From NCBI GenBank assembly GCA_913775095.1, contig CAJYIW010000026.1, positions 1-64,000 on the forward strand: a stretch of 64,000 nucleotides of DNA, in the 5' to 3' direction. Below, one piece after another: positions 4,024 through 25,936 of this stretch. The notes beneath the pieces are model-generated. The model made no database searches, was not told where the DNA came from, and worked only from the letters and a program-made list of their open reading frames with translations. Position 1 is the stretch's first letter; each line of letters opens with the position of its first letter. The position numbers and the translations under genes are program-made. Origin of the DNA: an uncultured Siphonobacter sp. GTDB taxonomy: Bacteria > Bacteroidota > Bacteroidia > Cytophagales > Spirosomataceae.

Positions 4024-4047
4024 GCTTCACCCTAACCAAAACCATTC

Positions 4048-7000
4048 ATGAATCTACGAGGTCTGTATTTCGTGCTACTGCTGCTAGCGGCTCCCTATGC
4101 GTTATGGAGTCAGCAGCTTTTGCGGGGGCAGGTGCTTTCCGCGACAACCCGGCAGCCCCTTTCCGGGGTGACCATTCGTCTGGATAATCAGGGCACGGTC
4201 AGTGATTCGCTGGGATACTTTCGTATGTTGACTTCTCAGCCGAATCCCCGCATCACCCTCTCGCACGTGGGCTATCAAAGCCAGCAAGTTACGCTTGTCG
4301 AAGGGCTTCAAATTTACTTAGCTGAAGATGCCCAGCAATTAAACGAAGTCCTGGTGTCGACCGGCTACGAGCAGCTGCCGAAAGAGCGGCTGACGGGATC
4401 CTTTGTTAGCATCAATAAGGAGCTTTTCAACCGCCGGGTAAGTACGAATCTCTTGGACCGGCTTGAGGATGTGACCTCAGGGCTGGTCTTTAACCGCAGT
4501 CCGGGTTCCGGCGGGCGGCCTCTGACCATTCGGGGGCAGAGTACGATCTTTTCAAATGCCAACCCCCTGGTGGTGGTTGATAACTTCCCCTACGAAAACG
4601 ATCTTTCCACGATTAATCCCAATGACGTCGAAAGCGTAACGGTACTCAAGGATGCGGCAGCTGCTTCCATTTGGGGGGCTAGGGCGGCAAACGGCGTCAT
4701 TGTCGTGACTACCAAAAAAGGACAGTTCAACCGACCCTTGCGCGTGTCTTTGAATGCCAACACCACGGTTTCGCAGCGTCCGGATCTTTTTTACCAGCCC
4801 ACGATTTCTACGGCGGACTACATCGGCTTTGAAAAATTTCTTTTTTCCAAGGGGTTTTACGCTTCGGCGGAAGCCTCGGCCAATCACTTGCCTTTAACGC
4901 CCGTCGTGGAACTGCTCATCAAGCAGCGGGAGGGGCTCTTGTCTTCCCAGGCTTTAGAAGCGGAGCTTTCCCGGTTGTCTTCTCGCGACGTGAGACGTGA
5001 AATCGAGCGCTATTATTTGCAGCCGGCTTTTAATCAGCAGTACGCGCTTTCACTCGAGGGGGGCACGGCCCAGTCGCATCATTTTGCCTCGATTGGCTAC
5101 GATCGCAACCGTTCTGAGTTAATGGGCAATAATCTAGAGCGCCTGACGCTTTCGCTTCGCAATACCTATCGCCTGAAAAAGCTCGAACTTTCCTCGACGC
5201 TCACCTTAGCCAAGGGCCTAAGCCGCAACAATCACCCCGATTTACCCAAGCATTACAACGCCCAGGGCCTGCCCGAAACGCTGTATCCCTACGCGCAGCT
5301 CCAAGCAGATGATGGAGAAAACCTAGCCGTGACGGGAAAATACCGCGACAGTTACGGCCTCGAGCGGCAAAAGCAGGGCTTTCTGGATTTTTCTTACCGA
5401 CCCCTGGAGGAGCTATCGCTCATGAATCGAAAGACGCAGAGTCTGGATTACCGCTTAGTGGGGCAAGTCAGCTATCCCCTTATCAAGGGCCTTAAAGCCG
5501 AAGTGCTCTATCAATACGCGGGCAGTAACCGCCTGTCTTCCCAACTGCAAAGCCAGCAGAGCTATTACGTGCGTGATCTGATTAATCAGTATACCCAGCT
5601 TAGCGCCGATGGATCCCTGAGCCGGCCCCTTCCCCTGGGCGCAATTCTGGATGAAAACCAAAGCCGCGGCTATGCCCAGGCCGGACGTTTTCAACTCACG
5701 CTCGACCGTTCCTTTCAAAAGCATCAGGTAGCGGCCCTAGCCGGTGTGGAAGTCAGGGAAGATGCCCTGCAAACCAGGCAGGACCGGCGCTACGGCTACG
5801 ATGAAGAGTATATGCTTAGCCAGCCCGTTGATTATGTGACCCGGTTCACTTCCGTGATTAATCCCTATTTAAACCAACCGATCCCGAATCAACAAAAGCA
5901 AACGCAGACCCTGGATCGTTACCGGTCGTATTACGCGAATGCTTCCTACAGCTATCAGCACCGCTACAGCGCCTCCCTAAGCGCGCGCCTGGATCAGAGT
6001 AATCTCTTCGGGGTGCGTACGAATCAGCGCAGCGTGCCCCTTTACTCACTTGGGGCGGCCTGGACGCTGAGTCAGGAGCCTTTCTTTAAAAGTAGCGTAC
6101 TTTCCTATGCCAAGCTGCGCGGCACCTTTGGCTACAATGGCAACATCAACAAAAGCGTTTCGGCGCTGGTAACAGCCGTCTATCGCAGTCCTTCGGGGCG
6201 CAACCCCCTGTTGAACGCGGAAATTGAAAACCCCGCCAATCCCGATTTACGCTGGGAGCGGGTAGGGGTGTGGAATGTGGGTCTGGATTTTGAACTCTTC
6301 AGGGGCCGGCTGTCGGGAAGTTTGGAGTATTACCGCAAAAACAGTCAGGATTTGATTGCCGAGATGCCTTACCCTTCCTCTTCGGGCGTGAGCAGTTTTA
6401 AGGGCAACCTGGCTTCCATGCAAAACCGGGGCCTTGATCTGCAGCTCAGTTCAGTGAATGTGGAGGGAAAACTAAGCTGGAAAACCGCGTTTCTCTTTAG
6501 CTACGTTAAAAGCTGGGTAAGTGCCTATCAGGCTAGGCCCAGCTCGGTTTCTTCCTATCCTTTGTATGCCGAAGGAGTGATGACCTTGCCGCTGCTGGGT
6601 AAGCCCCTCTACAGCGTCTACAGCTATCCTAGCGCGGGCCTGGATCCCCAAACGGGGGCCATGCAGGGCTTTTTAAACGGAGAAATTAGTCAGGATTACG
6701 CGGCTATTTTCTCTGCCATCACCCTCGATCAGCTGCGCTATCACGGCCCGGCTCAGCCCCGCGTCTTTGGCGCCCTTCGCAACAGCTTTAGCTGGGGCCG
6801 CTGGAGTGCTTCGGCCAACCTAAGCTACCGCCTGGGCTATTTCTTCCGGCGTCCCTCCATTCTGTATTCCTCGCTTTTGCAGGGCAAAGGCGGTCACGCC
6901 GATTACTACAAACGCTGGCAAAAACCCGGCGATGAGGCCTTTACCCAGGTGCCGGCGTTACCTGAGTACGGTAAGCAGAGCTACGATGCCTTATATACCC

Positions 7001-7227
7001 AGGGAGAAACGCTGGTGGAAAAAGGCGATCACCTGCGCTGGCAGGATGTTACGCTGAGTTACCGCTGGCCGCGCCTGGCGGGTGTATCGGCGCTGGAATG
7101 CTACGCCTACGTAAACAATTTGGGCGTGCTTTGGAAGGCCAGCCGCCAGGATCTTGATCCTGATTACGCGGCTGCTACTTACCCGCCTACGCGCACGCTG
7201 GCCTTAGGCATTAAAGCTAACTTTTAA
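4048..7227 (+). CDS. SusC/RagA-family TonB-dependent outer-membrane transporter
   Basis: 1059 residues. Signal peptide at the N-terminus ends near LWSQQ; a carboxypeptidase-regulatory-like beta domain follows (LRGQVLSATTRQPLSGVTI), then a TonB plug with the SusC signatures RGQSTIFSNANPLVVVDN and SVTVLKDAAAASIWGARAANG followed by VIVVTTKKG, then a beta-barrel to a C-terminal aromatic strand ending KANF. It imports ligands across the outer membrane with energy from TonB. The SusD partner starts 16 bases downstream and the TlpA-like gene lies upstream, so the three form an operon. No glycan enzymes are nearby, so the ligand is unlikely to be assigned as a polysaccharide; a peptide or other small molecule is possible. 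Confidence 0.95.
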   Translation: MNLRGLYFVLLLLAAPYALWSQQLLRGQVLSATTRQPLSGVTIRLDNQGTVSDSLGYFRMLTSQPNPRITLSHVGYQSQQVTLVEGLQIYLAEDAQQLNEVLVSTGYEQLPKERLTGSFVSINKELFNRRVSTNLLDRLEDVTSGLVFNRSPGSGGRPLTIRGQSTIFSNANPLVVVDNFPYENDLSTINPNDVESVTVLKDAAAASIWGARAANGVIVVTTKKGQFNRPLRVSLNANTTVSQRPDLFYQPTISTADYIGFEKFLFSKGFYASAEASANHLPLTPVVELLIKQREGLLSSQALEAELSRLSSRDVRREIERYYLQPAFNQQYALSLEGGTAQSHHFASIGYDRNRSELMGNNLERLTLSLRNTYRLKKLELSSTLTLAKGLSRNNHPDLPKHYNAQGLPETLYPYAQLQADDGENLAVTGKYRDSYGLERQKQGFLDFSYRPLEELSLMNRKTQSLDYRLVGQVSYPLIKGLKAEVLYQYAGSNRLSSQLQSQQSYYVRDLINQYTQLSADGSLSRPLPLGAILDENQSRGYAQAGRFQLTLDRSFQKHQVAALAGVEVREDALQTRQDRRYGYDEEYMLSQPVDYVTRFTSVINPYLNQPIPNQQKQTQTLDRYRSYYANASYSYQHRYSASLSARLDQSNLFGVRTNQRSVPLYSLGAAWTLSQEPFFKSSVLSYAKLRGTFGYNGNINKSVSALVTAVYRSPSGRNPLLNAEIENPANPDLRWERVGVWNVGLDFELFRGRLSGSLEYYRKNSQDLIAEMPYPSSSGVSSFKGNLASMQNRGLDLQLSSVNVEGKLSWKTAFLFSYVKSWVSAYQARPSSVSSYPLYAEGVMTLPLLGKPLYSVYSYPSAGLDPQTGAMQGFLNGEISQDYAAIFSAITLDQLRYHGPAQPRVFGALRNSFSWGRWSASANLSYRLGYFFRRPSILYSSLLQGKGGHADYYKRWQKPGDEAFTQVPALPEYGKQSYDALYTQGETLVEKGDHLRWQDVTLSYRWPRLAGVSALECYAYVNNLGVLWKASRQDLDPDYAAATYPPTRTLALGIKANF

Positions 7228-7243
7228 AAAAGGAACGACCTTT

Positions 7244-8593
7244 ATGAAACCCATACAAAAAATAGGGCTTTTGCTGCTGGGGCTGCTAGCGGCTTGCCAG
7301 AAGGATTTTTTAGACGAGCGGGCTGATCGGTCCCTAATGGTTCCTTCCAGTAAAGAAGATTTTCAGGCCCTGCTGGATCATTACGTAGACGTTATGAACT
7401 GGGCAACTACGGGCTTTTCCGTAGAAACGGATGAAGTCAGCATTGCCGATGGCGGCATTCCTTCTTCGGCCATGCTTTATTTTCATTTTTACACCTGGCA
7501 AGACCGTCAGTATTTACCTACGCAAGTGCCGGCCAACTGGCAGTTTGCCTACCGACAGATTTACTACGCTAATGTGGTACTGGAGGGAATCGAAAAAATC
7601 AAGAACGATCCTGCCGCTGGAGCGCTTCGGGGCTCGGCGCTCTTTTTTAGAGCCTGGGCGCATGTTAACCTGCTCCAGCTCTATGCCCCGCCCTATCAGG
7701 GCGCTAAAGCAACCCAGCTGTTAGGCGTTCCCCTGCGCCTGACCACTAACATCAATGAAAAAGCCACCCGGCCTTCGCTTGAAACGTGTTACCAACAGGT
7801 ATTAGGAGATCTTCTAGAGGCCGCTGAGCTACTGCCCGAGCGTTCTAGTCTCATCAACCGGCCCAGTCAGGCAGCGGCGTGGGCCCTGCTGGCCAGAATT
7901 CATTTGATTCGGCAAAACTATCAGGCCGCTCTTGAGGCTTCCACTCGGGCGCTGAATCTACAAAGTGATTTGTTGGATTTTAAAACGGTAGATGCCAGTA
8001 AAAGCCAGCCCTTTGATGATCCGATCGTAAGCCCTCATCCCGAAATTATTTTTTATGCCTGTAACATGATTAGTTCGGTATCCACGAATGCTTTGTACCG
8101 GGTCGATTCCACGCTCTTTGATGCTTACGGGGCGGGCGATCTTCGGAAAGCCATCTTTTTTAATGCCAATCGGAATGTGAAAGCTTCATACCTGGGAAGA
8201 GCGACCCGGCTTTTTGGCGGGCTGGCAACCGATGAACTGTATCTGATCCGGGCCGAGTGTGAAGCCCGGTTAGACCGCCCCACTGAAGCCCGAACGGACC
8301 TGCTTACGCTCCTAGAAAAGCGCTACCAAGCAGGCAAACTACCGGAGCTGTCGGCCTTGCAAGGGGAGGCCTTACTGGAGTACATCCTTTGGGAACGGCG
8401 CAAAGAGCTCTACTTGCGGGGGCTGCGCTGGCAGGATTTACGGCGATTGAACCTGGAGCCCCGCTACGCGGTGAGCCTGCATCGGCAGTTTGAAGGCAAA
8501 AGCTACGTATTGCCCGCCAATGATCCGCGCTATACGCTGCTATTACCCGATGATGAAGTAGCCGCTTACGGCCTAGCGCAGAATCCAAGATAA
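7244..8593 (+). CDS. RagB/SusD-family outer-membrane lipoprotein
   Basis: 449 residues, surface ligand-binding lid of the SusC channel. The N-terminus is a lipoprotein signal with lipobox LLAAC (acylated Cys near residue 18). The typical SusD helical repeats follow, with the conserved ALFFRAWAHVNLLQLYAPPY segment and C-terminal LIRAECEARL and ERRKELYLRGLRWQDLRRL blocks that close most SusD proteins. It is translationally close to SusC (16-base gap) and ends just before a bidirectional hairpin. It is shorter than many polysaccharide SusDs, which fits a small ligand. Gene family assignment is firm, ligand unknown. Confidence 0.94.
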   Translation: MKPIQKIGLLLLGLLAACQKDFLDERADRSLMVPSSKEDFQALLDHYVDVMNWATTGFSVETDEVSIADGGIPSSAMLYFHFYTWQDRQYLPTQVPANWQFAYRQIYYANVVLEGIEKIKNDPAAGALRGSALFFRAWAHVNLLQLYAPPYQGAKATQLLGVPLRLTTNINEKATRPSLETCYQQVLGDLLEAAELLPERSSLINRPSQAAAWALLARIHLIRQNYQAALEASTRALNLQSDLLDFKTVDASKSQPFDDPIVSPHPEIIFYACNMISSVSTNALYRVDSTLFDAYGAGDLRKAIFFNANRNVKASYLGRATRLFGGLATDELYLIRAECEARLDRPTEARTDLLTLLEKRYQAGKLPELSALQGEALLEYILWERRKELYLRGLRWQDLRRLNLEPRYAVSLHRQFEGKSYVLPANDPRYTLLLPDDEVAAYGLAQNPR

Positions 8594-8597
8594 AAAA

Positions 8598-8626
8598 ATT
8601 CCCGGCCTGCAGGGCGGGCCGGGAAT
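8598..8626. terminator. Bidirectional hairpin between converging operons
   Basis: ATTCCCGGCC and GGCCGGGAAT pair perfectly (10 bp) around an 9-base loop, right after the SusD stop and before the convergent DUF6520 gene. A run of A residues at 8592-8598 gives a T-run on the minus transcript, so it probably terminates both. Confidence 0.75.
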
Positions 8627-8661
8627 CACGCTAAATGATCGGGAACTCAATCTTGGAAAAC

Positions 8662-8913
8662 TTAGGGTACAAATTGACCGCTTTGCTCATCGCTGATGTT
8701 ACCCTGGCTATCCCGGTGAGCCGTGCAGACATTATCTAAGGCCTCACATTGATAGTTGGTAGTGGTCAACGGCTGCCAGTTAGGATTCTGCTTGGAGCCC
8801 GAATTATACACATTTTGCTCGGCTACGGGCTTGGTGAAGGCAAAAGCAGTGGTAGCCGTGAGCAAAAAAGCAAACAGACCTGCTTTGTGAAGTGATGATT
8901 TGAAAGAATTCAT
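8662..8913 (-). CDS. DUF6520-like small exported protein with two cysteines
   Basis: 83 residues. A signal peptide (residues 1-25, AGLFAFLLTATTAFA) is followed by a short mature part with exactly two cysteines, C56 and C63, in the pattern CEALDNVCTA. This matches my recollection of the DUF6520 family of Bacteroidota, small exported peptides of unknown role often next to MauE-like genes. ATG at 8911-8913. The upstream neighbour is the MauE-like gene on the same strand, but a strong hairpin (8997-9035) sits between them, so it may have its own promoter. A pair of cysteines in an exported peptide next to redox membrane proteins suggests a disulfide; this is inference. Confidence 0.75.
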   Translation of the reverse strand: MNSFKSSLHKAGLFAFLLTATTAFAFTKPVAEQNVYNSGSKQNPNWQPLTTTNYQCEALDNVCTAHRDSQGNISDEQSGQFVP

Positions 8914-8924
8914 AATACGACACG

Positions 8925-8956
8925 TTTAAAGATGAAAAGATTTAAAGATGAAAAAG
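8925..8956. repeat. Tandem 16-base duplication in the DUF6520 gene leader
   Basis: TTTAAAGATGAAAAGA (8925-8940) is followed directly by a near-identical copy (8941-8956, differing in the last bases). It lies 12 bases upstream of the DUF6520 ATG, so it is within its leader or promoter. Could be a regulator site pair or replication slippage. Confidence 0.7.
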
Positions 8957-8996
8957 AAACGATGGGGCTTGGGTTTTCAGACGGCCCTAGCGCCTG

Positions 8997-9035
8997 GCCC
9001 CTCCCCAAGGCACTCCCGCCTTCAGGGGATGGGGT
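8997..9035 (-). terminator. Hairpin after the MauE-like gene
   Basis: AAGGC/GCCTT (around ACTCCC) is extended by C-rich and G-rich flanks (CCCC-T-CCCC versus GGGG-A-TGGGG), giving a long GC-rich stem directly after the minus-strand stop at 9037. It probably ends the mauE transcript or reduces read-through into the DUF6520 gene. Confidence 0.55.
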
Positions 9036-9036
9036 C

Positions 9037-9447
9037 TTAAGAAGTTATCTTTTGCCAGGCCAATGCGTGTTTGCATTCCCACAGGCTCAGCAGCAGAAAA
9101 AAGGCATTAAAAAGCAAATGCGCCGGCCAGTCCAGCCGGCTGAGCACCCCACCGCAGCTGCAGGGAATGCGCTCAAAAACGCCTAGAAGAATCAGGGCAA
9201 TGTAGACCGTGAACAGACTCATGAGCCCTGCGTAGGCCCAGAGCCCATAGAGTCTCAGGCCTGGAATCAGTAGGCTCAACGCGATTACGAGCTCAAGCAG
9301 GGGCAGACCATAGGTCAGATAGGGGACCCAGCCTTCGGGCAGGGGTTGCAAGTAGAGTTGCCGGGAGAATTCCCGGGCATCTGCTAGCTTACTGCCCCCA
9401 GCGTAGGCAAAAAGAATGACGAGTAATACCGTGCGTAGCTGACTCAT
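9037..9447 (-). CDS. MauE/DoxX-like redox-associated membrane protein
   Basis: 136 residues from ATG 9445-9447 (a TTG four codons earlier is possible). Four hydrophobic helices are visible: about 5-20, 44-63, 68-91 and 108-125. The pattern FAYAGGSKL at the first helix and the GLPLLELVIALSLL second helix match the MauE/DoxX_7 family. A CSCGG motif (Cys 96 and 98) lies in the loop before the last helix, a likely redox-active thiol pair. MauE in methylamine utilisation helps supply disulfides to exported proteins; here the neighbours are a two-cysteine exported peptide and, across the convergent point, a TlpA-like protein. Role in this locus is inferred. Confidence 0.83.
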   Translation of the reverse strand: MSQLRTVLLVILFAYAGGSKLADAREFSRQLYLQPLPEGWVPYLTYGLPLLELVIALSLLIPGLRLYGLWAYAGLMSLFTVYIALILLGVFERIPCSCGGVLSRLDWPAHLLFNAFFLLLSLWECKHALAWQKITS

Positions 9448-9512
9448 AGATTTGACCAACCAAAATAGGAAAACAGGCCACTGATGACGCCAGTAAAGCT
9501 AGAGCGCTGGTT

Positions 9513-9571
9513 GGGTTTCATTTCTGCCCCGGGGCAGAAAGCGGCCTGTCTTGGGGCAGGAAATGAAACCC
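9513..9571 (-). promoter_or_regulatory. Mutually exclusive hairpins between Crp gene and mauE
   Basis: On the plus strand, TTTCTGCCCCGGGGCAGAAA (9521-9540) is a perfect 20-base palindrome. The 18-base stretch 9513-9530 also pairs with 9553-9571 (same sequence inverted, with one extra G). Both pairings use the same bases, so only one can form. In the minus-strand transcript this lies just after the Crp-family stop codon and 66 bases before the mauE ATG, the place where an attenuator would act. Confidence 0.6.
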
Positions 9572-9572
9572 A

Positions 9573-10130
9573 CTAGAGCCGGCGGCGCAGCCGGCTGATG
9601 GAAGTAGGGTACGCATAGAGATAGGAAGCGATATCCTGGACGGCCAGCTGATGGCAGGGAAAACGCTGGCAGAAATAGCGGTAGCGCTCGGGCAGAGGTA
9701 AGCCCGAAAGAAAGCTACGAAGATCTCGTTGTTGCATGCAATCCGCCAGAACGAGGCGGGCAATCCTTAGGGCCTGGCTGGATTGCTGCAGCAACGTCTG
9801 TAATTCACCAAACGAAAGGCTGGAGAGCTGACTAGTCGTGATGATTTGAAGGGAAAGCTGGCTGGGTTTACGGGAAAGAAAAGCCTGGGCATCCCAAACC
9901 AGGCAGGGCGATTTGAAAAACTGCCGTACTTCGATGCGTCCATCGGCGTGGGCGTAGAAGGCTTTGGCTAAACCCTGTTCGAGAAAATAAATCCGGGAGG
10001 GAATTTTTCCGGGTCTGAGCAAGTAATCACCTGCAAGAAAGCCTTCCCGCCGAATGATTAACTCTAACTTGCCAATAAGGAGCTGATCCACCTCCGAAAG
10101 GGAGTGCAGGTAGTCAATGAAAGCATTCAT
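9573..10130 (-). CDS. Crp/Fnr-family regulator in the LanB operon
   Basis: 185 residues. The N-terminal two thirds is a cyclic-nucleotide-binding-like beta-roll (IIRREGFLAGDYLLRPGKIPSRIYFLEQGLAKAFY) followed by the dimer helix and a short C-terminal HTH (VQDIASYLYAYPTSISRLRRRL). Bacteroidota have many such divergent Crp paralogues; the cAMP-contacting residues are not evident, so the effector is unknown. It begins 10 bases after the LanB stop and is in the same minus-strand operon, so it may feed back on the locus. The last helix of the HTH runs to the C-terminus, which is compact but normal for this subgroup. Confidence 0.85.
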   Translation of the reverse strand: MNAFIDYLHSLSEVDQLLIGKLELIIRREGFLAGDYLLRPGKIPSRIYFLEQGLAKAFYAHADGRIEVRQFFKSPCLVWDAQAFLSRKPSQLSLQIITTSQLSSLSFGELQTLLQQSSQALRIARLVLADCMQQRDLRSFLSGLPLPERYRYFCQRFPCHQLAVQDIASYLYAYPTSISRLRRRL

Positions 10131-10140: not shown

Positions 10141-12990
10141 CTAGTAGGTGGAAGAGCGGGCCAGACGAGAGGCGTAATGCCGGCTTAAAAAGCAGTACAC
10201 CAGCAGCTCATGCTGGCGGGGATGATGGATAAATAAGCGGTTGATGCTCATGTGCAAGTAATGCGGCAGTAGCGAAAGAGGATCCCCCTTTTCTTTGATC
10301 TGCCTTAAGCTACAAGCTGCTCTTTGTTGCCAGGATTCTTTCCAGACCGGTGGGCGGGAAAGGCTTTCTTCAAGCGTGGGTCGGTAGAGCCGGTAGCGCT
10401 TTTGAAGCCGGCGCCGCAGGGAAATAGGTTCTGCGTGTTCCCTAAAAAAGCGCTGCTCTAGATTCTCTAAAAGCGAAAGCCGGGTAGGAAGATCTAGCTC
10501 AAAGGCCGTAAGATAGGTATCCATCATTTGAAAAGCCATGGACAGGCGATCCCCGGCCGAGGGTTTGCTTTGAAAGAAGGTAAGCATCCACTCACTTTCT
10601 AAGCAAAACCAGTCTTCGCTAACTCGCATGAGAGCAGGACCCCCGTAGCGCTGGGTTTCTGGTTCATAGGTATCGACTTGCAGCGTTAATAATCCACTCG
10701 AAAGCTGGGAAGCTAAGTGCTTTTGGAGTTGCACCAGGGCCCTTGCTGCCCGCCCAGCGCTGGTAAAGTGAAACCTCAGCCGAAGGTGCGGCTCGGGATC
10801 CGAGTAGCGAATAAAAAACCAGCGCTTACGTAGAAGCGTTGCTAAAAAGCTTGGTAGCTGCTCACTGAGCCACTCCTCGAGCAGTTCCCAGCCCCCGTAA
10901 AGCTTTACATACAGGTAAGAAGAGCCCGGGCTGTAGCGATTCTGGGCTCGTGAAAGGACGGGAAAGCTAGCTGCCGGGGAAATAGAATTCGCCTGGTAGA
11001 GCAGCACTACCTCGCTGGTAAAGTGCTCCCGGCGCTGGTTTTGAATCCAGCAATTTTCCGGGGGTTGCAACCACTCGTAGACAAAGACCGATCCTTTTTT
11101 TTCAAGGGTGGCCTCTAGCAGTTGCCGGCAAAGCTTTTGGTGAAGATCCAGCACGAGTTCCTGATCGCCTTCTGCTAGGCACACCCAGCGCGGCAGCGAG
11201 TGGGGCCAGATTTGAGCGGGTTCCAACTGCCAGCGGGCCCGGTAGAGAATTAAAGGGCCTAGCATCAGGCGGGGAAGAAAGGCGTGGGGTAGGCTTAGGG
11301 GCCAGTCACCAGTAAAGTGCAGGGCGTCCTGCTGAAATTGCAACGCACTTAAAAAGGCGTAAATGCCTAGGCCGTTTTTGAAATTATGAGCCGAAGAAAG
11401 CCGGGGAATGATTTGTCTTTTGAGCCGCTTGGAGTGCAGCACGATGCGGCCGTCGGCATTTACGCTTACCAAAAGATCTGATAAAGGAATTTGTCTGGAT
11501 TTGGGAACGCCGGGCTGGCCTAAACAGGCAATCTCATAATCACTTAAAATGGGCCGGGCGATGACGTTGCCCGCCCGCCCCGGGGGCAAGTGAATGATTT
11601 CGGCCGTTAGGGCTTCTGAGGCGGTGTAAAGGGCCTTTTTTAACTGCTTGGCTAGTTGTTTATCATGGCAAGCAAAGCGGCCCAAGAGTCTGGAAAAGCC
11701 TGGACCCTGTAGAATGCGGACGTGAAAGCTAAAATGCCCGTTGTCTAGGGCCTGAGCATGGGATGATAGAAAGCTTCCCAGCACAAAAAAAGAAGGCGGG
11801 CTGCTGGGCTGAGGTAGGTCTTCTGGTTGGAGTGTAATTGTAGGCATGTTCACTTCCATAACACTTAGGCGGGAAAGAGCCAGTTTGGTAAGTCTGTCTA
11901 GAGAATCCGTAGCCTGGGTCACCGGAGTTAGAGCGAAGTCTTCTAAGTAAGAAGGCCACAGGGGTTGCTCATCGCCTACGCCCCAGTCATGGTCAAGCGC
12001 TTCCAGTAAGGGCACAGCTTGAGAGCCATAGCGGGCTGTAAAGCGCTCGGCAAAGGCTTTAAGCTCATCGGTTTGGGAAACAAATACGCATCCAGCCAGC
12101 GCCTTAACATACGGCTCAAGGCGGGATGCGGCCGTGTGGCTCAACTCACAGTCCTGCATGCGAAAAAAAAGATCGCTTTGGTACTCGGGCTTGATTCTTG
12201 CCAGGGGGCTATAAAAGGTTTCAAGACTTAGTTTTTTGGAAAAAGGACCCGCTTTTTTAAGGAATTGTAAAAAGCGCAGGTGCTCGGCAGTTCCCTGCTT
12301 TTTTTTGAGGATGCCGAGCAGCTGATCAAGGGCGGGTTTTCCCGTAGGCCTCAGGCGCAGCTCGCTAAAAAGCAACTGCTCTTGGATGAGCTCTTCAAGT
12401 AAATCACGCGCACGACTGGTCGGAAGGCCCTGACTTTCGATTCTTTTTAAAAGGCAATCGTAGGAGAGTCCTACTTGAGCCTGCTTGAGGAGCTGTAACA
12501 AAGAAGCCGGAACTTTGGAGAGTTCGCTGAGCACAAACTTCTCCTGGATTCGTTGCAAATACCGCAGCCGGTCGGCTTTTGAGTAGAGGGATTCATTGCT
12601 AAAGTAGCGAAGCTGGCAGCGAAGCGGCGGCTCGGATTCTAAGGTTTCAATCAGGCGCTGGGCGTAGGCACTGTCCAGCCGGTGGTGCAAGCGGTAGCCC
12701 TGCCGCGTGATTTTGGTTTGAGCGGCAAGCGCTCCGCTACTCACGCCGGCAAAGCAGCCAAAGGGCGTCGGGCGGGAACTCATGCGAATAAAGTACTTCA
12801 AAAGACTTTCATAGGCCGCTTGGGGTAAGGGATGGGTCTTGTCAAGCTGCCCGGAAAACTCTCTAGAGGCCAGGGACAGGGCCCGGCGGAACAGGGGTTT
12901 TTTAGTGAGTATCGAAGCGGAGGGTAAGGGCAAAAGGCTTTCCAGCGGATACGCCGGCATCCGCAAAAGAAAAAAAGGAAGAAAAGACAT
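10141..12990 (-). CDS. Full-length LanB lanthipeptide dehydratase
   Basis: 949 residues. The N-terminal part holds the glutamylation-domain signature SSRPTPFGCFAGV (residues 71-83), equivalent to the RxTPFG block of NisB-type enzymes. The C-terminal elimination (SpaB_C, thiopeptide-type) domain begins near 723 with RWFFIRYSDPEPHLRLRF, then YEPETQRYGG (about 774-783) and HMSINRL (about 913), the conserved His block. Family members use glutamyl-tRNA to dehydrate Ser/Thr of a precursor peptide in the cytoplasm. Both domains are in one chain, as in class I lanthipeptide enzymes, unlike the split pairs of thiopeptides. A 46-residue precursor candidate lies 90 bases upstream on the same strand. No LanC cyclase, peptidase or intact exporter is seen in the window. 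Confidence 0.92.
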   Translation of the reverse strand: MSFLPFFLLRMPAYPLESLLPLPSASILTKKPLFRRALSLASREFSGQLDKTHPLPQAAYESLLKYFIRMSSRPTPFGCFAGVSSGALAAQTKITRQGYRLHHRLDSAYAQRLIETLESEPPLRCQLRYFSNESLYSKADRLRYLQRIQEKFVLSELSKVPASLLQLLKQAQVGLSYDCLLKRIESQGLPTSRARDLLEELIQEQLLFSELRLRPTGKPALDQLLGILKKKQGTAEHLRFLQFLKKAGPFSKKLSLETFYSPLARIKPEYQSDLFFRMQDCELSHTAASRLEPYVKALAGCVFVSQTDELKAFAERFTARYGSQAVPLLEALDHDWGVGDEQPLWPSYLEDFALTPVTQATDSLDRLTKLALSRLSVMEVNMPTITLQPEDLPQPSSPPSFFVLGSFLSSHAQALDNGHFSFHVRILQGPGFSRLLGRFACHDKQLAKQLKKALYTASEALTAEIIHLPPGRAGNVIARPILSDYEIACLGQPGVPKSRQIPLSDLLVSVNADGRIVLHSKRLKRQIIPRLSSAHNFKNGLGIYAFLSALQFQQDALHFTGDWPLSLPHAFLPRLMLGPLILYRARWQLEPAQIWPHSLPRWVCLAEGDQELVLDLHQKLCRQLLEATLEKKGSVFVYEWLQPPENCWIQNQRREHFTSEVVLLYQANSISPAASFPVLSRAQNRYSPGSSYLYVKLYGGWELLEEWLSEQLPSFLATLLRKRWFFIRYSDPEPHLRLRFHFTSAGRAARALVQLQKHLASQLSSGLLTLQVDTYEPETQRYGGPALMRVSEDWFCLESEWMLTFFQSKPSAGDRLSMAFQMMDTYLTAFELDLPTRLSLLENLEQRFFREHAEPISLRRRLQKRYRLYRPTLEESLSRPPVWKESWQQRAACSLRQIKEKGDPLSLLPHYLHMSINRLFIHHPRQHELLVYCFLSRHYASRLARSSTY

Positions 12991-13027: not shown

Positions 13028-13054
13028 AGGCCCCCTTGGATCGAAAAGGGGCCT
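13028..13054 (-). terminator. Hairpin between precursor gene and lanB
   Basis: AGGCCCC and GGGGCCT are inverted copies separated by 13 bases, in the 90-base gap between the precursor stop and the LanB start. No strong T-run follows in the direction of transcription. Such a hairpin in RiPP operons often stabilises the precursor RNA or lets only part of transcription continue to the enzyme gene. Confidence 0.55.
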
Positions 13055-13080: not shown

Positions 13081-13221
13081 TCATCCGGTTGTAGCAAGCG
13101 TGCAGGGAATGGTGGATAGCTGAGTTGGCAGAGCCTTGGGGTCCGGCCGGGCATCGGCACTCGCAATGATTTTTTTAGTAAGGCTGGAGAATCCAGCCAG
13201 GGAGAGACGGGCATTTTTCAT
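13081..13221 (-). CDS. Lanthipeptide-like precursor peptide (46 aa)
   Basis: A short frame of 46 residues from ATG 13219-13221 to TGA 13081-13083, on the same strand as LanB and directly between the LytTR regulator and LanB. The leader part carries LSLAGFSSLTKKIIAS (residues 6-21), which resembles the LSL-K-xTI leader motif of Bacteroidota RiPP precursors. The C-terminal part is rich in dehydratable residues with a single cysteine: STIPCTLATTG (36-46), with Thr 33, 37, 41, 44, 45, Ser 36 and Cys 40. It has no signal peptide. One cysteine allows at most one lanthionine ring. The cleavage site is unknown; there is no GG motif. The coding call rests on position, length and composition. Confidence 0.72.
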   Translation of the reverse strand: MKNARLSLAGFSSLTKKIIASADARPDPKALPTQLSTIPCTLATTG

Positions 13222-13330
13222 AAGAAATCGGGTTTGTTTACCATCTCTAAGCTAAAAAAGCTCCGATGAGAGAATCAATTGCCAGCGTCAGTTATTTCGT
13301 GAACTCCCCACCTATCTTCCGCAAATCCCC

Positions 13331-14074
13331 CTATATATTCCGTGAATTAGTTAAAGAGAAGTCAGGGAAATAAAGCCCTAACCAGCTTTCAAACGCCTTT
13401 TGGTAACTTTCACCGATGGGAATGGAAGTTAATTGGCCTTGGGCGTCCTTGAGATAAATCTCTTTTTTATGGATCTTATCAATTGCTGATACATTGACTA
13501 TAAAGGAGCGATGCACGCGTAAAAAATGCGTGGGTGGAAACTGATCTTCAAACGATTTTAATGGCCGGTGAGCCATTAAAAAGGAACCCTGTTGAAGATG
13601 AATCTTCACGTACTTATCCAGGCTTTCAATGAAGAGAATTTTCTGAGGGATAACTTTTGTATAGGCATGGCCCTCCCTTGTTAAAACATCCCTGATCAAA
13701 AAAGGCTCGAGTTCAGTTTCAGCTGGGGGAATTTTCTGAACGGCTTTTAAAAATCGCTCGTAGGAAAAAGGCTTTTTTAAAAAATCAATGACTTCATAGG
13801 CAAAGACCTGCTGGGCTGAGGGCTCCTGAGCCGTTGTGAAAATGACTTTGGGCCTGAAAGCGGCCGGTAACTGATCTAATAGCTCAAATCCGGAGGAACC
13901 CGGAAGCGCTAGATCAAGAAACAAAAGCCGGGGCCGGCTCTCCAGAATGGCTGCTTGGGCTGAGAATGCATTTTCATACGAGCCGAGTAATCGCAGCCTG
14001 GGCGTTTGGCTGATGTAGCGCTCGAGTAAGCGCTGGGCGGGAAAGTCATCTTCAATAATTAGGCAAGTCGTCAT
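13331..14074 (-). CDS. LytTR-family response regulator
   Basis: 247 residues. The N-terminal receiver shows the acidic pair (IIEDD, residues 6-10), phospho-acceptor in LLFLDLALPGSSGFELL, the TTAQ switch and KKPF. The C-terminal LytTR DNA-binding domain includes ILFIESLDKYVKIHL and HFLRVHRSFIVNVSAIDKI. It starts 8 bases after the kinase stop on the same strand, so the two form a two-component pair. The precursor gene lies 109 bases downstream, so the pair probably controls peptide production, as LytTR systems do for many bacteriocins; that link is inferred from position. Its last codons overlap one copy of a TTCACGGAA-like motif repeated 44 bases away, upstream of the precursor. Confidence 0.93.
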   Translation of the reverse strand: MTTCLIIEDDFPAQRLLERYISQTPRLRLLGSYENAFSAQAAILESRPRLLFLDLALPGSSGFELLDQLPAAFRPKVIFTTAQEPSAQQVFAYEVIDFLKKPFSYERFLKAVQKIPPAETELEPFLIRDVLTREGHAYTKVIPQKILFIESLDKYVKIHLQQGSFLMAHRPLKSFEDQFPPTHFLRVHRSFIVNVSAIDKIHKKEIYLKDAQGQLTSIPIGESYQKAFESWLGLYFPDFSLTNSRNI

Positions 14075-14082: not shown

Positions 14083-15174
14083 TTAGCGAAGCAAAAGCGT
14101 GAGCTGGGTTGTGAACACGGATCCGTTTTGTTGATAGCTTAAATGGTGGCGCTGGGGATAAAGTAGATGGAGCCGCTGCTGGGTAAGAGCCAGGCCCCGA
14201 CCGGGAGGGTGAGCGGGTGTAAAAGCAGAGTTCTCAATGCGTAGTTTGAGCTCACCCGAAGCTTGAATAACCAAGTCAATGGTAATCCAGGAAGGTTCGC
14301 CCCTAGGAGAAATGCCGTGCTTAAAGGCATTTTCAATGCAGGTAATTAAAAGAAACGGATAAATTTCAAGCTCTTCTTGAATGGAAGTGACGTTAAAACG
14401 CAGGGGAAAATCCGGCTTGAAGCGCAGCCTTTGCAGGGCTACGTAGTGGCTGATGAAGGCAATTTCCCGTGATAAAGGCAGGGGCGTATCTCTGTCGGGT
14501 TGACTTTGGTAATCAATGAGCTGGGAGACGTTTAAAATTTGGGTGGCCAGGTCGTTATCCCGTTCTAAAGCCAGTGCGTAAAGGTTATGCAGGGTATTAA
14601 GAACAAAATGCGGCTGGATCTGCGCTTTTAGGGAACTGATTTCTAGCTCAGCCTTTTGTTGAAGCAAGCGCTGCTGCTCATAACGAAGGAGGTAGTGTAG
14701 TTTAAATCCTTTGGCAAGCAGGGGCAACAAAAGCGTAGAAAAACTAAACGACCAGTTAAAGATGAATACATATTTACTCTTGAGTGCATGAATAAACCCG
14801 CCTTTAGTATACATGTAATTTATTCGCTGGAAAGCCCAATATGGATATTTTAAGAAAGATAATCCATAGTAAAAAATGACTGTTGTAATGGTATAGGTCA
14901 GTATAAGAGTAAACACAGCTTTTAAGTAATTTTGCTCCTGAAGGGCACCTAAGGTTCCGATACTAAGAATGTAGTAAGACATTATAAGTGTGAGCAGAAT
15001 CAATGCCAGCAGACTAAGTAGCGATTCAGTCGGCACATTCTTTCCCGCACTCATTTGAAGCTGACTGAAGGTGAATGTAGCTACCAGCAACCAAAACGCA
15101 AGATGAAAGATCCAGCGGATGCGGGCATTGGGATAGGGGCGGTCTAAAAAAAGCCACGCAAATAGCATATTCAT
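14083..15174 (-). CDS. LytS-like sensor histidine kinase (His_kinase family)
   Basis: 363 residues. Four or more hydrophobic segments fill the first 160 residues (for example WIFHLAFWLLVATFTF and LLSLLALILLTLIMSYYIL), without a large extracellular sensor. A coiled linker precedes the His_kinase phospho-acceptor block QIQPHFVLNTLHNLYALAL, then the ATPase N-box CIENAFKHGI and a terminal G-box GRGLALTQQRLHLLY. This is the usual partner of LytTR regulators, and it is followed by one 8 bases downstream. The membrane-only sensor fits detection of a peptide or an envelope state. Start at 15174 is taken, with a second Met two codons later. Confidence 0.92.
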   Translation of the reverse strand: MNMLFAWLFLDRPYPNARIRWIFHLAFWLLVATFTFSQLQMSAGKNVPTESLLSLLALILLTLIMSYYILSIGTLGALQEQNYLKAVFTLILTYTITTVIFYYGLSFLKYPYWAFQRINYMYTKGGFIHALKSKYVFIFNWSFSFSTLLLPLLAKGFKLHYLLRYEQQRLLQQKAELEISSLKAQIQPHFVLNTLHNLYALALERDNDLATQILNVSQLIDYQSQPDRDTPLPLSREIAFISHYVALQRLRFKPDFPLRFNVTSIQEELEIYPFLLITCIENAFKHGISPRGEPSWITIDLVIQASGELKLRIENSAFTPAHPPGRGLALTQQRLHLLYPQRHHLSYQQNGSVFTTQLTLLLR

Positions 15175-15864
15175 GGCCAGTTCAAATTACAAAGGGAAGA
15201 CGGAAGGCTGGAAAAGGGCAACAGTCATGGAATCAACTGCTAGAATAAAGCTAAACCCTTTTCCAATAGTTAATATTACAAAATAATCGCTGGATTTTAA
15301 AGGAAAGTGGATCGATTTAGGCGGGCTAAAGGCAAAAACGCTGTTTCAAAAACGCTTTTCATCGGTCTTTTTCTTAAAAAAGTTCATGGGGTCATTTGCT
15401 TCTTTTTTAACGTACCAGTAACTGATTTTGCAAGGCAGATCGCCCTTTATTCATCTAGGATCTAATGGATCAATGTACTTTTATAAGCCCTTTATGAAAC
15501 GTTTTTTTGCCTTAGGGTCGCTGCTTTTTTACTGGGTTCTGGCTCTTTTACCAAGCATTGGCACGGCAGTGCTACCGAGCAGTTAAAGAATTGCAGGGAA
15601 AGCAAACGTTTTACTAAGGGTTCCTAGCAACGACACCTACCTGCAGGTATAAATTAAGAAGGGATGAAAGGGATCTCAAGGCTATTCTTAAGTCCGATTC
15701 TAAATCAATCTTTGTCCAAAACATGCTCTTTCGGCAAGCTAATACGCTGCATTTAGTGAATCAAAAAGGAAAAGAATCTATTCTAACGCTTCAAGATAAA
15801 CGTGCAGCGGGCTTCAGCGCCTTAGCAGCTAAGGCAGCACCTTCACTCAGGAAAAGAATTATGA
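15175..15864. other. Gap with broken coding remnants
   Basis: About 690 bases upstream of the kinase. A short frame from 15494 (MKRFFALGSLLFYWVLALL, 30 residues) reads like a signal peptide but stops at once. Interrupted frames continue up to the HlyD-like remnant that is intact from 15865. I interpret the stretch as decayed coding DNA, but the parts before 15865 have no recognisable family. Confidence 0.45.
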
Positions 15865-16200
15865 TCAGTAGCGCCAACGGCTCAAAGTTTTCGAGGGTAC
15901 ATTTCTCTCGCTCAGGGAAAGCTCGGGAAAGTAGTGGAGGGCCAGAGAGTAATCATCAAGTTTGAGGGCTATCCATACCGAGAATATGGAGTAGTAGAGG
16001 GTATCATATCCAAATTATCAATCACTCCAGGGGCTGATAGTACCTTTTGGAGCCATATCGATCTGCCCAATCAATTAACAACTCGGCAGGGCAATACGCT
16101 TCTGTATAAAAATGGACTGAAGGGGACAGCAGAAATGATTACAGCTGATCGAAGACTGATTCAACGATTTTTGTCAGCAATAAGTCGCGCAGGACAATAA
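15865..16200 (+). pseudogene. C-terminal remnant of an HlyD-family secretion adaptor
   Basis: About 111 codons are open in one frame after a stop at 15862, ending at the stop 16198-16200. The translation contains GQRVIIKFEGYPYREYGVVEG and LPNQLTTRQGNTLLYKNGLK, then GTAEMITADRRLIQRFL, the standard C-terminal beta-barrel and end of HlyD-like membrane fusion proteins that work with peptidase-containing ABC transporters. The N-terminal anchor and coiled-coil are missing and no ABC transporter is nearby, so this is a broken gene. Such adaptors export RiPPs, so it may be the lost exporter of the adjacent lanthipeptide-like locus. Confidence 0.8.
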
Positions 16201-16823
16201 CCATCTAATTATGATCCCATTCCAGCAGCATAGAAAGTTACTGTTCAACAAGATAAGGCTATGAAAGGCAAAGAAATGGGGTTTAGCTTATATCGCTGTA
16301 AATAATGCGAAAAAAGTCTTACCCTTGCTTCATGAAATCATTAAGAATCAAAGTTCCTTCACCGGCAGGCTAGTTGCTGACTAGAAAAGTTGAGAGAAAC
16401 GAATCAATTGAAGTCCCTTACATTCCAGGTGATAAAAAGGCTACTAGTCCATTAGCCTACTAAAGGCTTGAACTTATAAACCTTACTTAGGTTAGGCGTC
16501 GCCTAAAATCAGACTCCAGCCCCATGGGCTAAAGAAACCTGTCTGGTTCTCTATTAGAGATGGCATCGCGGTTTATTTTAGTCAGTTGTCAGCGTAAATG
16601 TGAAGCAGGTTAGGCCATTAAATTAAAAATTCAATAAAATCTTGACACTTTTGAGTTTATGGCCTTTTTTAGCCTGTTCAGAGGCCTATTTTTACGGCCT
16701 ACCTCCCTTAACTCAATGGTTAGGGCCTTGCATCCTAGCATAAACCCGCACCGATTGCAAATGCTAATTTTTAAGACTGATAATTCAGATTGTAAAGAGT
16801 TTGATTAATCACCTTGAAAACGT
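16201..16823. other. Intergenic stretch with a 15-base palindrome
   Basis: A frame of about 35 codons without an obvious start (WGLAYIAVNNAKKVLPLLHE, about 16278-16384) may be another gene fragment; I cannot assign it. TTAGGCGTCGCCTAA (16492-16506) is a perfect 7-bp inverted repeat with a one-base centre, a shape usual for dimeric regulator sites. The segment 16630-16800 is AT-richer and is the likely promoter area for the gene at 16824. Confidence 0.4.
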
Positions 16824-19245: not shown

Positions 19246-19557
19246 ATGAAATCTCTCATTAGTAAACGTGGGCTGATTAGCCTTTTAATGAGTACTTTTT
19301 TACCTCTTAGTCTCTGGGCTCAGGATGGGAATAGTGGCATTCAGGAGGCCAATACCATGATTCGTGGCTACTTTGAGTCCGGTACCCAGCTTATGTACGC
19401 TGTTGGAGCTATTTTGGGCCTGATTGGTGCCATCAAAGTGTTTCAAAAGTGGAACAGTGGCGATAACGATACCAATAAATCAGCAGCGGCCTGGTTTGGT
19501 TCCTGCGTTTTCTTAGTGGTAGTGGCCACCGTCATTAAGTCCTTCTTTAGCGTATAG
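19246..19557 (+). CDS. traE: TraE-family conjugal transfer protein (DUF4134)
   Basis: 103 residues: a signal peptide (to LWAQ, residue about 24), then a short polar part GIQEANTMIRGYFESG, and two membrane helices (TQLMYAVGAILGLIGAIKVF and AAWFGSCVFLVVVATVIKSF) separated by KWNSGDNDTNKS. This is the standard TraE/DUF4134 pattern of Bacteroidota conjugative elements, regarded as a VirB2-like small inner-membrane or pilin-like subunit. It is followed 21 bases later by TraF. Confidence 0.93.
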   Translation: MKSLISKRGLISLLMSTFLPLSLWAQDGNSGIQEANTMIRGYFESGTQLMYAVGAILGLIGAIKVFQKWNSGDNDTNKSAAAWFGSCVFLVVVATVIKSFFSV

Positions 19558-19578
19558 CTACTAGCGTTAGGCGTTTTT

Positions 19579-19908
19579 ATGAACTCGTATACGCTGCACG
19601 AACGCATTAACCGGCCCCTTGAATTTGCCGGTCTTCAAGCTCATTACATTAGCTATGGGGCTATAGGGAGCGTAAGTCTGCTGTTGCTTTTTACGCTTCT
19701 GTATCTACTAGGTCTGGGGGCACTGCTTTGCCTGGTACTAACGGCGGGCCTGGGCCTGGGTTTATGGCTGAGTGTTAGCCGGCTGAGTAGCCGTTACGGT
19801 CCTTATGGGCTGGTCAAGAAAAAGATGTATCAACGATTGCCCCGGGCCATCCGGGTGTATTCGCCTCATGATGTACGTTTAATTAAAGATCCATGGAAAA
19901 AAAGCTAA
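19579..19908 (+). CDS. traF: TraF-family conjugal transfer protein (DUF4133)
   Basis: 109 residues with two adjacent membrane helices (YGAIGSVSLLLLFTLLYLLGL and ALLCLVLTAGLGLGLWLSV), preceded by NRPLEFAGLQAHYI, the conserved DUF4133 N-terminal block, and followed by a basic tail. Members are VirB3-like partners of the VirB4-type ATPase. Its end overlaps the start of traG by 16 bases, which indicates coupled translation. Confidence 0.92.
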   Translation: MNSYTLHERINRPLEFAGLQAHYISYGAIGSVSLLLLFTLLYLLGLGALLCLVLTAGLGLGLWLSVSRLSSRYGPYGLVKKKMYQRLPRAIRVYSPHDVRLIKDPWKKS

Positions 19909-22349
19909 CGCAGGCCTTTCCCCTCTGGGCCGTGGAGGATGACTGGCTGATTTCTAGAAAGGGAGATATCACCATCGGCTTTGAATTACAACTTCCTGAG
20001 TTATTTACCCTTTCGGCTCCGGAATACACCCAGCTTGAACAAAACTGGATTAAAGCCGTCAAGCTTCTACCCCCGGGCACGATTCTGCACAAACAGGATT
20101 TTTTTCTGGAGCGGACCTTTCAAGCCTCCGATCAGGGCTGTCGGAGTTTTCTCCAGCAAAGCAGTGATGCTTTTTTCCAGGGACGCCCTTATCTCCAGCA
20201 CCGCTGCTACGTGTTTTTAACCCAAATGGCCCGGAGGGCCCAGGTTCTGCCGGGGTATCTGATGCATTCGCTGATTCAGCCGAGTTTTACCGCCCGCTCC
20301 AAAGCCGACGAAAAACAAGTCAGAGCCTTTCTCTCGCAAATCCGGCAGTTTAAGCTCGTGCTCGAATCCAATTCGTTTTTACAGCTGCGTCTCATCCAGG
20401 GCAGCGAATACGATTCGAGTGCTACAGAGCCGGGAATTCTGCACCGGTATTTGTTTCTGGATTCCTCACCCTCAGTTTTGAAGGATATTCAAATCAAAGA
20501 ATCCTTGAGAATTGGGAATCAGACCCTAGGAGTATACTCCCTGGCCAATACCAAAGACTGGCCCTCCCAGATCATGTCCAGTAGAAAGCTGGATCGTTAT
20601 TCCACGGAAAGTTCTGATTTTGTCACGGGTTTTGTCAGCCCTTTAGGCCCCCTGTTGACCTGCTCTCACGTCTATAATCAGTACGTATGCATTGAGGAGG
20701 CGGGCCGAATTATTAAGACCCTAGAGCAGAAGCGCTTACGTCTGCAGGCCCTTTCCTCGTATTCCCGGGAAAACCAGCTGTCGCGCGAAAGCATTGATGC
20801 CTTTTTGAATGAAGCCTTGGCTAGGGGCAGTCTACCGGTTCGGGCTCATTTTAACCTCATGCTTTGGGGACCTACCCAAGAAAGATTAATGCAGGCCCGG
20901 GAGCAAGCTTTTTCCGCCCTGTCGGCAATGAATATCCTAGCCAAAGAAGAAACCCTGGGGGCGGCGCCTTTATTCTGGGCCGGAATACCGGGCAATGCTT
21001 CGGATTTACCCGCGGAGGAAACCTTTCTAATGCTAGTAGAACCCGCCGTATGTTTGTTGAATCACGAGGGCAGCAGTCGAAACAATACCCAGCTGCCAGG
21101 CGTGCGGCTGGGGGAGCGTTTGACGGGCAAGCCTCTGCAAATTGATTTAAGTGAAGAACCCTACAATCAGGGGCTTATTACCAACTATAATAAGTTCATT
21201 TTGGGTCCTTCGGGCAGTGGAAAGTCCTTCTTTACCAATCACCTGATCCGAAGCTATTTTGATCAGGGGGCTCACATTGTCTTAGTCGACGTGGGCCACA
21301 GCTATCAAGGGCTGTGTGAAATGCTCAAAGGTTCGTATTTTACCTATGAGGAAAAGGCATCGCTGAGTTTTAATCCTTTTATTCCCAACGATGAGCTCCA
21401 GGGCTATGATCTGGAAAAAAGGGAATTTTTAAAGGCCCTTTTGCTTTCCCTTTGGAAAAAAAAGAGAGAGGACCATTCCCAAACCGAGTATTCGGCCTTA
21501 TCACATGCCCTGTATTCGTATCTGTCCTGGCTCAAAGAGCATCCATATTTTCGCCCCTGCTTTAATTCTTTCTACGAGTTTGTTGCCCTAGACTACAAAG
21601 ACCCGGCCGCCGATGCCGAAGACAGATTTCTCGACTGGCAGAGCTTTCTCTTTGTGCTCAGACCCTTTTACGAAGGGGGCGAATTTGAGTATCTGTTAAA
21701 TGCCTCTGAGCAGGTAGATCTTTTGGCCCAGCGCTTTATTGTCTTTGAGCTGCAACGCATTCGGGATCACCCCTTGCTTTTTCCAGTGGTGACGCTCATG
21801 ATTATGGATGTATTCTGGTCGAAAGTACGCAAACTGGAAGGCGTTCGAAAAATGATCCTGCTGGAAGAAGCCTGGAAATCCATTGCTCAGGAAACGATGG
21901 CTACCTACATACAAACCCTCTTTAAAACGCTTCGAAAGCATACGGGCGAAGCCATTGTGGTAACCCAGGAAATCGAAGATATCATTTCAAGCCCCATCGT
22001 CAAGCACACCATCATTAATAACTCGGACTGTAAAATCATTCTGGATCAAAGCAAGCAGCAGCATAAGTTTGAGCAGATTCAACAGCTACTGGGTCTGACC
22101 CAAAAACAAAAAGCCCAAATACTGTCCTTAAACCGGGCCAATGATCCGTCCCGGCGCTACAAGGAAGTCTTCATTAGTTTAGGCGCGGAGTGGTCGAATG
22201 TCTTTCGGGTAGAAACCTCACCGCAGGAATACTGGTGTTATACGTCCAAAGAAAGCGAAAAGCTAAAGCGAGATACCGCTAGCCAGCACTACGGAAGTTT
22301 GCAAGCCGGCATCCAGGCACTAGTTGACTCTCAATCCTTTCAGTCATGA
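19893..22349 (+). CDS. traG: TraG-family conjugation ATPase (VirB4-like)
   Basis: 818 residues. The N-terminal half is the pore-binding domain typical of the family; the C-terminal half is the ATPase, with Walker A GPSGSGKSFF near residues 438-447 and Walker B MILLEEAW near 654-661, then VTQEIEDIISSPIV and NNSDCKIILDQSK, characteristic of Bacteroidota TraG. It powers assembly of the transfer pore at the inner membrane. The family name TraG is used here as in CTnDOT; it is not the VirD4 coupling protein, which is at 30103. The stop overlaps the next start by 4 bases (ATGA). Confidence 0.95.
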   Translation: MEKKLTQAFPLWAVEDDWLISRKGDITIGFELQLPELFTLSAPEYTQLEQNWIKAVKLLPPGTILHKQDFFLERTFQASDQGCRSFLQQSSDAFFQGRPYLQHRCYVFLTQMARRAQVLPGYLMHSLIQPSFTARSKADEKQVRAFLSQIRQFKLVLESNSFLQLRLIQGSEYDSSATEPGILHRYLFLDSSPSVLKDIQIKESLRIGNQTLGVYSLANTKDWPSQIMSSRKLDRYSTESSDFVTGFVSPLGPLLTCSHVYNQYVCIEEAGRIIKTLEQKRLRLQALSSYSRENQLSRESIDAFLNEALARGSLPVRAHFNLMLWGPTQERLMQAREQAFSALSAMNILAKEETLGAAPLFWAGIPGNASDLPAEETFLMLVEPAVCLLNHEGSSRNNTQLPGVRLGERLTGKPLQIDLSEEPYNQGLITNYNKFILGPSGSGKSFFTNHLIRSYFDQGAHIVLVDVGHSYQGLCEMLKGSYFTYEEKASLSFNPFIPNDELQGYDLEKREFLKALLLSLWKKKREDHSQTEYSALSHALYSYLSWLKEHPYFRPCFNSFYEFVALDYKDPAADAEDRFLDWQSFLFVLRPFYEGGEFEYLLNASEQVDLLAQRFIVFELQRIRDHPLLFPVVTLMIMDVFWSKVRKLEGVRKMILLEEAWKSIAQETMATYIQTLFKTLRKHTGEAIVVTQEIEDIISSPIVKHTIINNSDCKIILDQSKQQHKFEQIQQLLGLTQKQKAQILSLNRANDPSRRYKEVFISLGAEWSNVFRVETSPQEYWCYTSKESEKLKRDTASQHYGSLQAGIQALVDSQSFQS

Positions 22350-23589: not shown

Positions 23590-23597
23590 TCAAATGC

Positions 23598-24209: not shown

Positions 24210-24221
24210 AGCCCTTTCGGT

Positions 24222-25175: not shown

Positions 25176-25180
25176 CTTCT

Positions 25181-25789: not shown

Positions 25790-25923
25790 AAATCAAATCT
25801 TATTTGAAAGATCCTCAAGCCGTAATTGCCGCTTTGCTAGGCCTTACTCTACTGGTTTTGCTGCTTTGGACGGCTTATGATTTATGGAATCCGCAAAATC
25901 AGTATTTCTTTTCATCTTTTTAA
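25786..25923 (+). CDS. Very small TraL-like membrane protein (45 aa)
   Basis: 45 residues from ATG 25786-25788 to TAA 25921-25923. One strong membrane helix (residues about 12-29, VIAALLGLTLLVLLLWTA) is flanked by a basic N-terminus and a short aromatic tail. The start overlaps the TraK stop in an ATGA arrangement and TraM begins 13 bases later, exactly the position of traL in CTnDOT-like operons. Sequence is too short for a firm family call. Confidence 0.72.
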   Translation: MKIKSYLKDPQAVIAALLGLTLLVLLLWTAYDLWNPQNQYFFSSF

Positions 25924-25936
25924 CCTATTCAAGCTC

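Follow-up and report, generated by a model that had tools for sequence, protein, structure and literature searches.

We consider it likely that the full-length LanB dehydratase encoded in the window (the whole 64,000-nucleotide stretch of DNA analysed here) dehydrates the tail of a 46-residue peptide encoded beside it, in a LanC-less system that would yield a product either linear or with one ring, under the control of a neighbouring histidine kinase-LytTR pair. That the peptide is the substrate of this LanB is very probable, being well supported by homologues in place, by purifying selection on the tail and by the full-length LanB. The adjacent kinase-LytTR pair probably regulates the peptide; that the kinase senses the product is no more than a guess. 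What we infer from sequence for the window peptide comprises dehydration, cleavage site, ring, export, regulation and signalling. The features concerned are:

13081..13221, minus strand: precursor peptide gene, 46 amino acids plus stop (translation, homologues in place in two relatives, purifying selection)
13120..13221, minus strand: leader-like part, residues 1-34, with conserved KK[VI]IAxA (alignment; putative role)
13084..13119, minus strand: conserved tail, residues 35-46, LSTIPCTLATTG (alignment, pN/pS, spacing counts)
10141..12990, minus strand: full-length LanB dehydratase, 949 amino acids (PF04738 and PF14028; alignment to solved LanBs)
13331..14074, minus strand: LytTR response regulator (PF00072 and PF04397)
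14083..15174, minus strand: histidine kinase (PF06580)
9573..10130, minus strand: Crp/Fnr-like regulator directly 3′ of LanB, syntenic in three genomes (PF00027)
9037..9459, minus strand: MauE-like membrane protein, syntenic (PF07291)
8662..8913, minus strand: DUF6520-like small protein, syntenic (PF20130, just under the cut-off)
13249..13278, minus strand: promoter-like TTG-N21-TAGCTT 5′ of the peptide, a pattern picked after inspection
13028..13054, minus strand: hairpin and T-rich tail in the gap before lanB, a possible leaky terminator
15877-16176, within 15600-16450, plus strand: decayed HlyD-like remnant (tblastn)

The frame at 13081-13221 translates on the minus strand as MKNARLSLAGFSSLTKKIIASADARPDPKALPTQLSTIPCTLATTG, followed by a stop. 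The LytTR gene, ending at 13331, is 109 nt away, and the LanB gene, starting at 12990, is 90 nt away; both are on the same strand, where the gene order is histidine kinase, LytTR, peptide, LanB, Crp/Fnr-like, MauE-like and DUF6520-like. The preliminary description had picked out a 46-codon frame between LytTR and LanB on their strand; its coordinates and translation agree with ours, and the frame is conserved in two relatives. Two further members of the genus have homologues in the same LytTR-LanB slot (L003:4453-4599 and L004:1196-1333), with 46% and 38% identity, respectively, to the window peptide in an alignment of the three, which has 17 invariant columns and in which residues 35-42 are all invariant. 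The two genomes, G180 and G177, also have the LanBs closest to that of the window (54% and 41% identity between the LanBs). Across the 12 core codons the three pairwise comparisons gave pS of 0.65-0.75 against pN of 0.12-0.16, so that conservation is of the peptide, beyond that of the DNA alone; for leader codons of the same three genomes pN was 0.39-0.55. The tail that the three peptides share in the alignment, LSTIPCTLxTT, is under strong purifying selection, and a chance ORF is ruled out by this pattern together with the homologues in the same slot.

A profile of the three peptides recovered its own members at E values of 1.3e-25 to 2.2e-24 among 222 genomes of the family, where the next best match stood at E 9.4e-4; some match at E <= 1 occurred in 110 of the 222, and these we read as noise. 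Among 395 genomes of the class, the one strong match was in the peptide's own genome, the next best reaching E 0.0012. Of the six genus genomes, the remaining three lack a homologue: two have no LanB match, and the LanB of the third (G179) is a different one. In all three genomes that possess the peptide it adjoins LanB, which argues against its being an unmodified signal for the adjacent kinase-LytTR pair, with LanB working on some other substrate. The position of the Ser/Thr-rich peptide directly 3′ of that pair is what would favour such a role, but the conserved residues are those that LanB could use, and a better precursor elsewhere in the operon, which the preliminary description had envisaged, was not seen in the locus; we thus regard the unmodified signal as very unlikely. 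The DUF6520-like protein was set aside as a substrate by eye, because it looks secreted.

The enzyme itself was correctly called a full-length LanB, as it covers positions 2-649 of the 649 of PF04738 and 2-255 of the 255 of PF14028, so that both dehydratase domains are near complete in one protein of 949 residues; with glutamylation and elimination domains in this single protein, it is not a split LanB of the thiopeptide kind. It is the sole PF04738 match in the source genome, and the name TIGR03891 that it receives concerns the C-terminal domain only. It can be aligned to solved LanBs, and its R69, R73, T75, R737, R739 and R781 correspond to R83, R87, T89, R784, R786 and R826 of NisB, which we take to be residues that matter in that enzyme; NisB H961 lies outside the coverage of the alignment. 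All six are invariant across the three LanBs of the genus. In a FastTree phylogeny of 141 of 143 LanBs, the window LanB forms a clade with those of the two other genus members (support 1.0), and the next enclosing clades, of 8 members (0.973) and 24 members (0.537), consist throughout of LanBs without a nearby LanC; LanC-near LanBs are scattered across the tree, which splits into 40 blocks.

We propose that the N-terminal part of the peptide, containing KKIIASA, would act as the leader bound by LanB, which would glutamylate Ser and Thr residues of the tail LSTIPCTLATTG and eliminate glutamate to give dehydroalanine and dehydrobutyrine. A leader and a Ser/Thr/Cys tail had been described before: the N-terminus is indeed leader-like and the tail is conserved, but conservation in the leader falls on KK[VI]IAxA and not on LSLAGFSSL. 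The peptide matches no Pfam or NCBIfam model in hmmscan; NF038153 (lant_leader_L1a) misses it, and the leader holds a degenerate LxLxKx5L at best, the second half of which KK[VI]IAxA resembles by eye. FNLD and LxLxKx5L are known leader motifs of class I lanthipeptides. LxLxKx5L leaders are reported in Bacteroidetes by one survey (PMC7268733).

Within the tail, Ser36 and Cys40 sit in S[STG]xxC spacing (S36-T-I-P-C40) and would be placed for one five-residue lanthionine ring. As the search found no LanC, this ring would be self-closing or would need some unrecognised factor, or else the peptide would stay linear. In ring A of nisin, too, a Ser lies four residues ahead of a Cys, but the window peptide has a single Cys, no second ring and no LanC. 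SxxxC is given as part of the nisin/gallidermin motif in PMC7268733.

This spacing recurs in the tails of other candidate precursors. The 62 LanC-less loci used here gave 57 distinct tails of 18 residues, which contain no Cys in 22 cases, one in 33 and two in 2; for the 28 of the 62 peptides that come from 24 genomes without a LanC match, the figures are 10, 16 and 2. Ser stands exactly four residues before the Cys in 25 of the 29 single-Cys tails long enough to reach that position, against a shuffling expectation of 3.2 (maximum 11 in 5000), and Ser or Thr occupies position -3 in 20/32. That count omitted 8 loci with 13 peptides; after their addition, which brought five single-Cys tails, four of them lacking Ser at -4, the figure is 26 of 34 distinct single-Cys tails. 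The Cys-free peptides L112 and L177 had been lost to a crude GG-leader filter, and neither count includes L090 or, because their E values exceed the cut-off, L157 and L162. Tails within groups share ancestry, which weakens these statistics; among 14 hand-picked group representatives, 11 had Ser at -4 where 1.5 were expected, and in 15 hand-picked LanC-type tails, by contrast, Ser was at -4 for 2 of 38 Cys. Several tail families of different sequence (STIPC, SSRIC, SGxxC, STPxC, TSGxxC) have the spacing in common, which suggests selection for a single five-residue ring, though no LanC is known. Beyond the genus, the nearest LanB relatives for which a precursor was found (L081, L083, L084, L085) have Cys-free tails.

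The peptide had been described as a class I lanthipeptide precursor, and this stands as far as the conserved gene in place, the LanB and the leader and tail are concerned, but not for LanC (no match in the source genome or in G177), an exporter or a match to a precursor model. Because that name fails on LanC, we place the peptide as a LanC-less variant that would use lanthipeptide dehydratase chemistry. It resembles the class I lanthipeptides of Bacteroidetes (pinensins) in having a full-length LanB, a short precursor, a basic hydrophobic leader and a Ser/Thr/Cys tail, and differs in having no LanC match, no double-Gly leader end and at most one Cys. An ordinary class I lanthipeptide, with its thioether ring made by a LanC too divergent for Pfam or off the assembly, seems improbable to us. 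Ser36 and Cys40 would suit such a ring, and G180 does carry a LanC elsewhere on the contig of its peptide locus (about 33 kb from the peptide's LanB and about 8 kb from a second LanB), being the only one of six genus genomes with a LanC above the cut-off, while G176 has a weak match under it. Yet PF05147 found nothing in the source genome, which is 99% complete, and nothing in its relative G177, and 52 of the LanBs listed across the family fall in 39 genomes without any LanC match.

No dedicated exporter or leader protease was found among the intact neighbouring genes scanned at the locus, and the lone C39 peptidase match of the source genome is on another contig and has a stop inside. In tblastn, the HlyD-like remnant near the kinase aligned with the HlyD-type exporter adaptor from G180's second LanB cluster (30% across 101 aa, E 6.5e-7, 1.5-kb target); no ORF of the remnant has a Pfam match. 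It hints at a lost export gene and at a once-fuller cluster, which would favour the ordinary lanthipeptide explanation.

Conjugative-element genes (TraG, TraJ, relaxase, coupling protein) adjoin the LanB locus at about 19318-32118 on the plus strand of the window and are colinear with contig C61 of G180; after them G180 has its second LanB, the LanC and C39 transporters, which do not follow in the window. The genus has one further precursor family, MKTPSTSxNRLVLKKER...CExFT, which lies 5′ of another LanB in G180, G179 and G177 (loci L035, L036 and L037; L120, L096, L097), and G179 and G177 have this family and no LanC match.

It seems that the peptide has a promoter of its own and that a leaky terminator stands ahead of lanB; in lanthipeptide operons, a leaky terminator 3′ of the precursor gene is a common arrangement. 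Each of the three genomes has TTG-N20 or N21-TAGCTT 5′ of the peptide, a pattern picked after inspection; shuffles of the single regions contained a looser pattern in 3%, 3% and 11% of cases, and all three together in 0.02%. The terminator scan, which yielded 16 sites against 10.4 in shuffles, placed a hairpin of 10 pairs with a T-rich tail at 13054-13028; for the 43-nt hairpin piece the folding energy is -16.4 kcal/mol (z -2.76), while a 100-nt piece is not unusual (z -0.83). Hairpins of differing sequence are seen by eye at the same place in both relatives.

A T-tailed hairpin directly between ORF and lanB in three genomes (in the relatives by eye) could also mean that the ORF is a regulatory leader peptide, whose translation governs the hairpin and hence lanB expression, and no substrate at all. 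The C-terminal residues are conserved while synonymous change is free, however, and related LanC-less loci hold similar small ORFs with leader-like motifs, in some cases in tandem, and of the explanations considered we judge this one the least probable.

Returning to the peptide as LanB substrate, the histidine kinase-LytTR pair most likely controls both peptide and LanB, and sensing of the product is possible. LytTR autoinducing peptide systems of Firmicutes have a histidine kinase and a LytTR regulator by a small peptide gene, as here, but in the window the peptide adjoins LanB and sensing is putative. LytTR regulators are common here: the source genome has 21 LytTR genes, or about 4% per 11 kb. 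The kinase homologue of G177 is in two ORFs, 182 and 125 aa long (L034:4498-5046 and 5241-5618), and so is possibly broken there or affected by a sequencing error. Crp/Fnr-like and MauE-like genes are near LanB in 5/143 loci (the window at 2680-10130, L032, L034, L183 and L186); in the three genus genomes they are followed by TlpA-like and SusD-like genes, and by a SusC-like one by eye, while the other two loci belong to one other genus and have a different orientation.

Across the family, LanB matches were found in 116 of the 222 genomes and LanC matches in 85. The LanBs considered are 150 among the matches listed (more than 150 in total), with up to three candidates scored per genome in most genomes; LanC, counted as near if the contig had a PF05147 match (E <= 0.001) no more than 20 kb away, accompanied 39 of them and not the other 111. 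Some contigs are short, which makes the 52 LanBs in the 39 genomes without a LanC match the firmer figure. We examined all 111 LanC-less loci and 32 of the 39 LanC-near ones. Homologues of both LytTR and kinase were near 88/111 and 22/32, respectively, so that the pair is not specific to the LanC-less type.

The precursors of the two types of locus differ. An iterated profile found one at E < 0.05 in 53 of the 111 LanC-less loci and in 22 of the 32 with LanC; at least two Cys after residue 22 were present in 4/53 against 16/22 (Fisher P 3e-8), and a G[GA] pair after residue 20 in 12/53, most of these lying away from the leader end by eye, against 17/22. Two LanC-type precursors matched NF038153 above its cut-off; for LanC-less precursors the match was weak or lacking. 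With BLAST-conserved Ser/Thr-rich ORFs within 1 kb upstream added, some of which look like wrong frames, candidates were present at 66/111 LanC-less and 16/32 LanC loci; no precursor candidate lay within 1 kb upstream at 45 of the 111. The window peptide is like the LanC-less precursors of the family in lying beside LanB, mostly with a LytTR-kinase pair, in having 40-50 residues and 0-1 Cys, and in the S[STG]xxC of most single-Cys tails, but sequence similarity is too low for one profile; as the LanC-less precursor profile misses the window peptide family at E < 0.05, membership is by place and pattern only.

A first scan of further contigs with the window LanB alone was unproductive. A scan with the alignment of three LanBs gave 33 loci, one of them a Siphonobacter relative, and in the 22 of these scanned for precursors, S[STG]xxC outside Siphonobacter occurred in one ORF (L237), which we take for chance. 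Several Flavobacterium loci have double-Gly peptides 3′ of LanB with Cys-free tails such as ...GG...TITPPTNSGQ (L224, L228, L230, L235, L236, L243 and others), possibly another type of LanB substrate, unable to form thioethers. Directly 3′ of LanB in L152 and L184 are small leader-bearing peptides with repeated HTIPF or HTIPY units, for instance NHTIPFDHTIPFNHTIPFNHTIPF, as though a short product were present several times over in each precursor.

A full-length LanB is usually taken as half of a LanB/LanC pair. In the literature searched, which excluded most subscription papers, nothing evidently concerned full-length LanB systems without LanC. The survey of PMC7268733 started from LanC and dropped ORFs without Cys, and it would therefore miss LanC-less loci; PMC10352776 describes the opposite case, LanC without LanB in Bacteroidales.

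Most of the LanBs listed here (111/150) have no LanC nearby, and these go with their own kind of precursor. We suggest, tentatively and with more doubt than conviction, that in this family of Bacteroidota many full-length LanBs form a LanC-independent class, acting on short precursors from LytTR operons that are dehydrated, remain linear or gain a single five-residue Ser-xxx-Cys ring with no cyclase, and serve as autoinducing signals. If such a class is real, genome mining that starts from LanC or requires Cys passes its members over. The locus opens the questions of whether LanB alone may yield a finished peptide, whether a ring of fixed size could form without LanC, and whether LytTR systems may sense dehydrated peptides.
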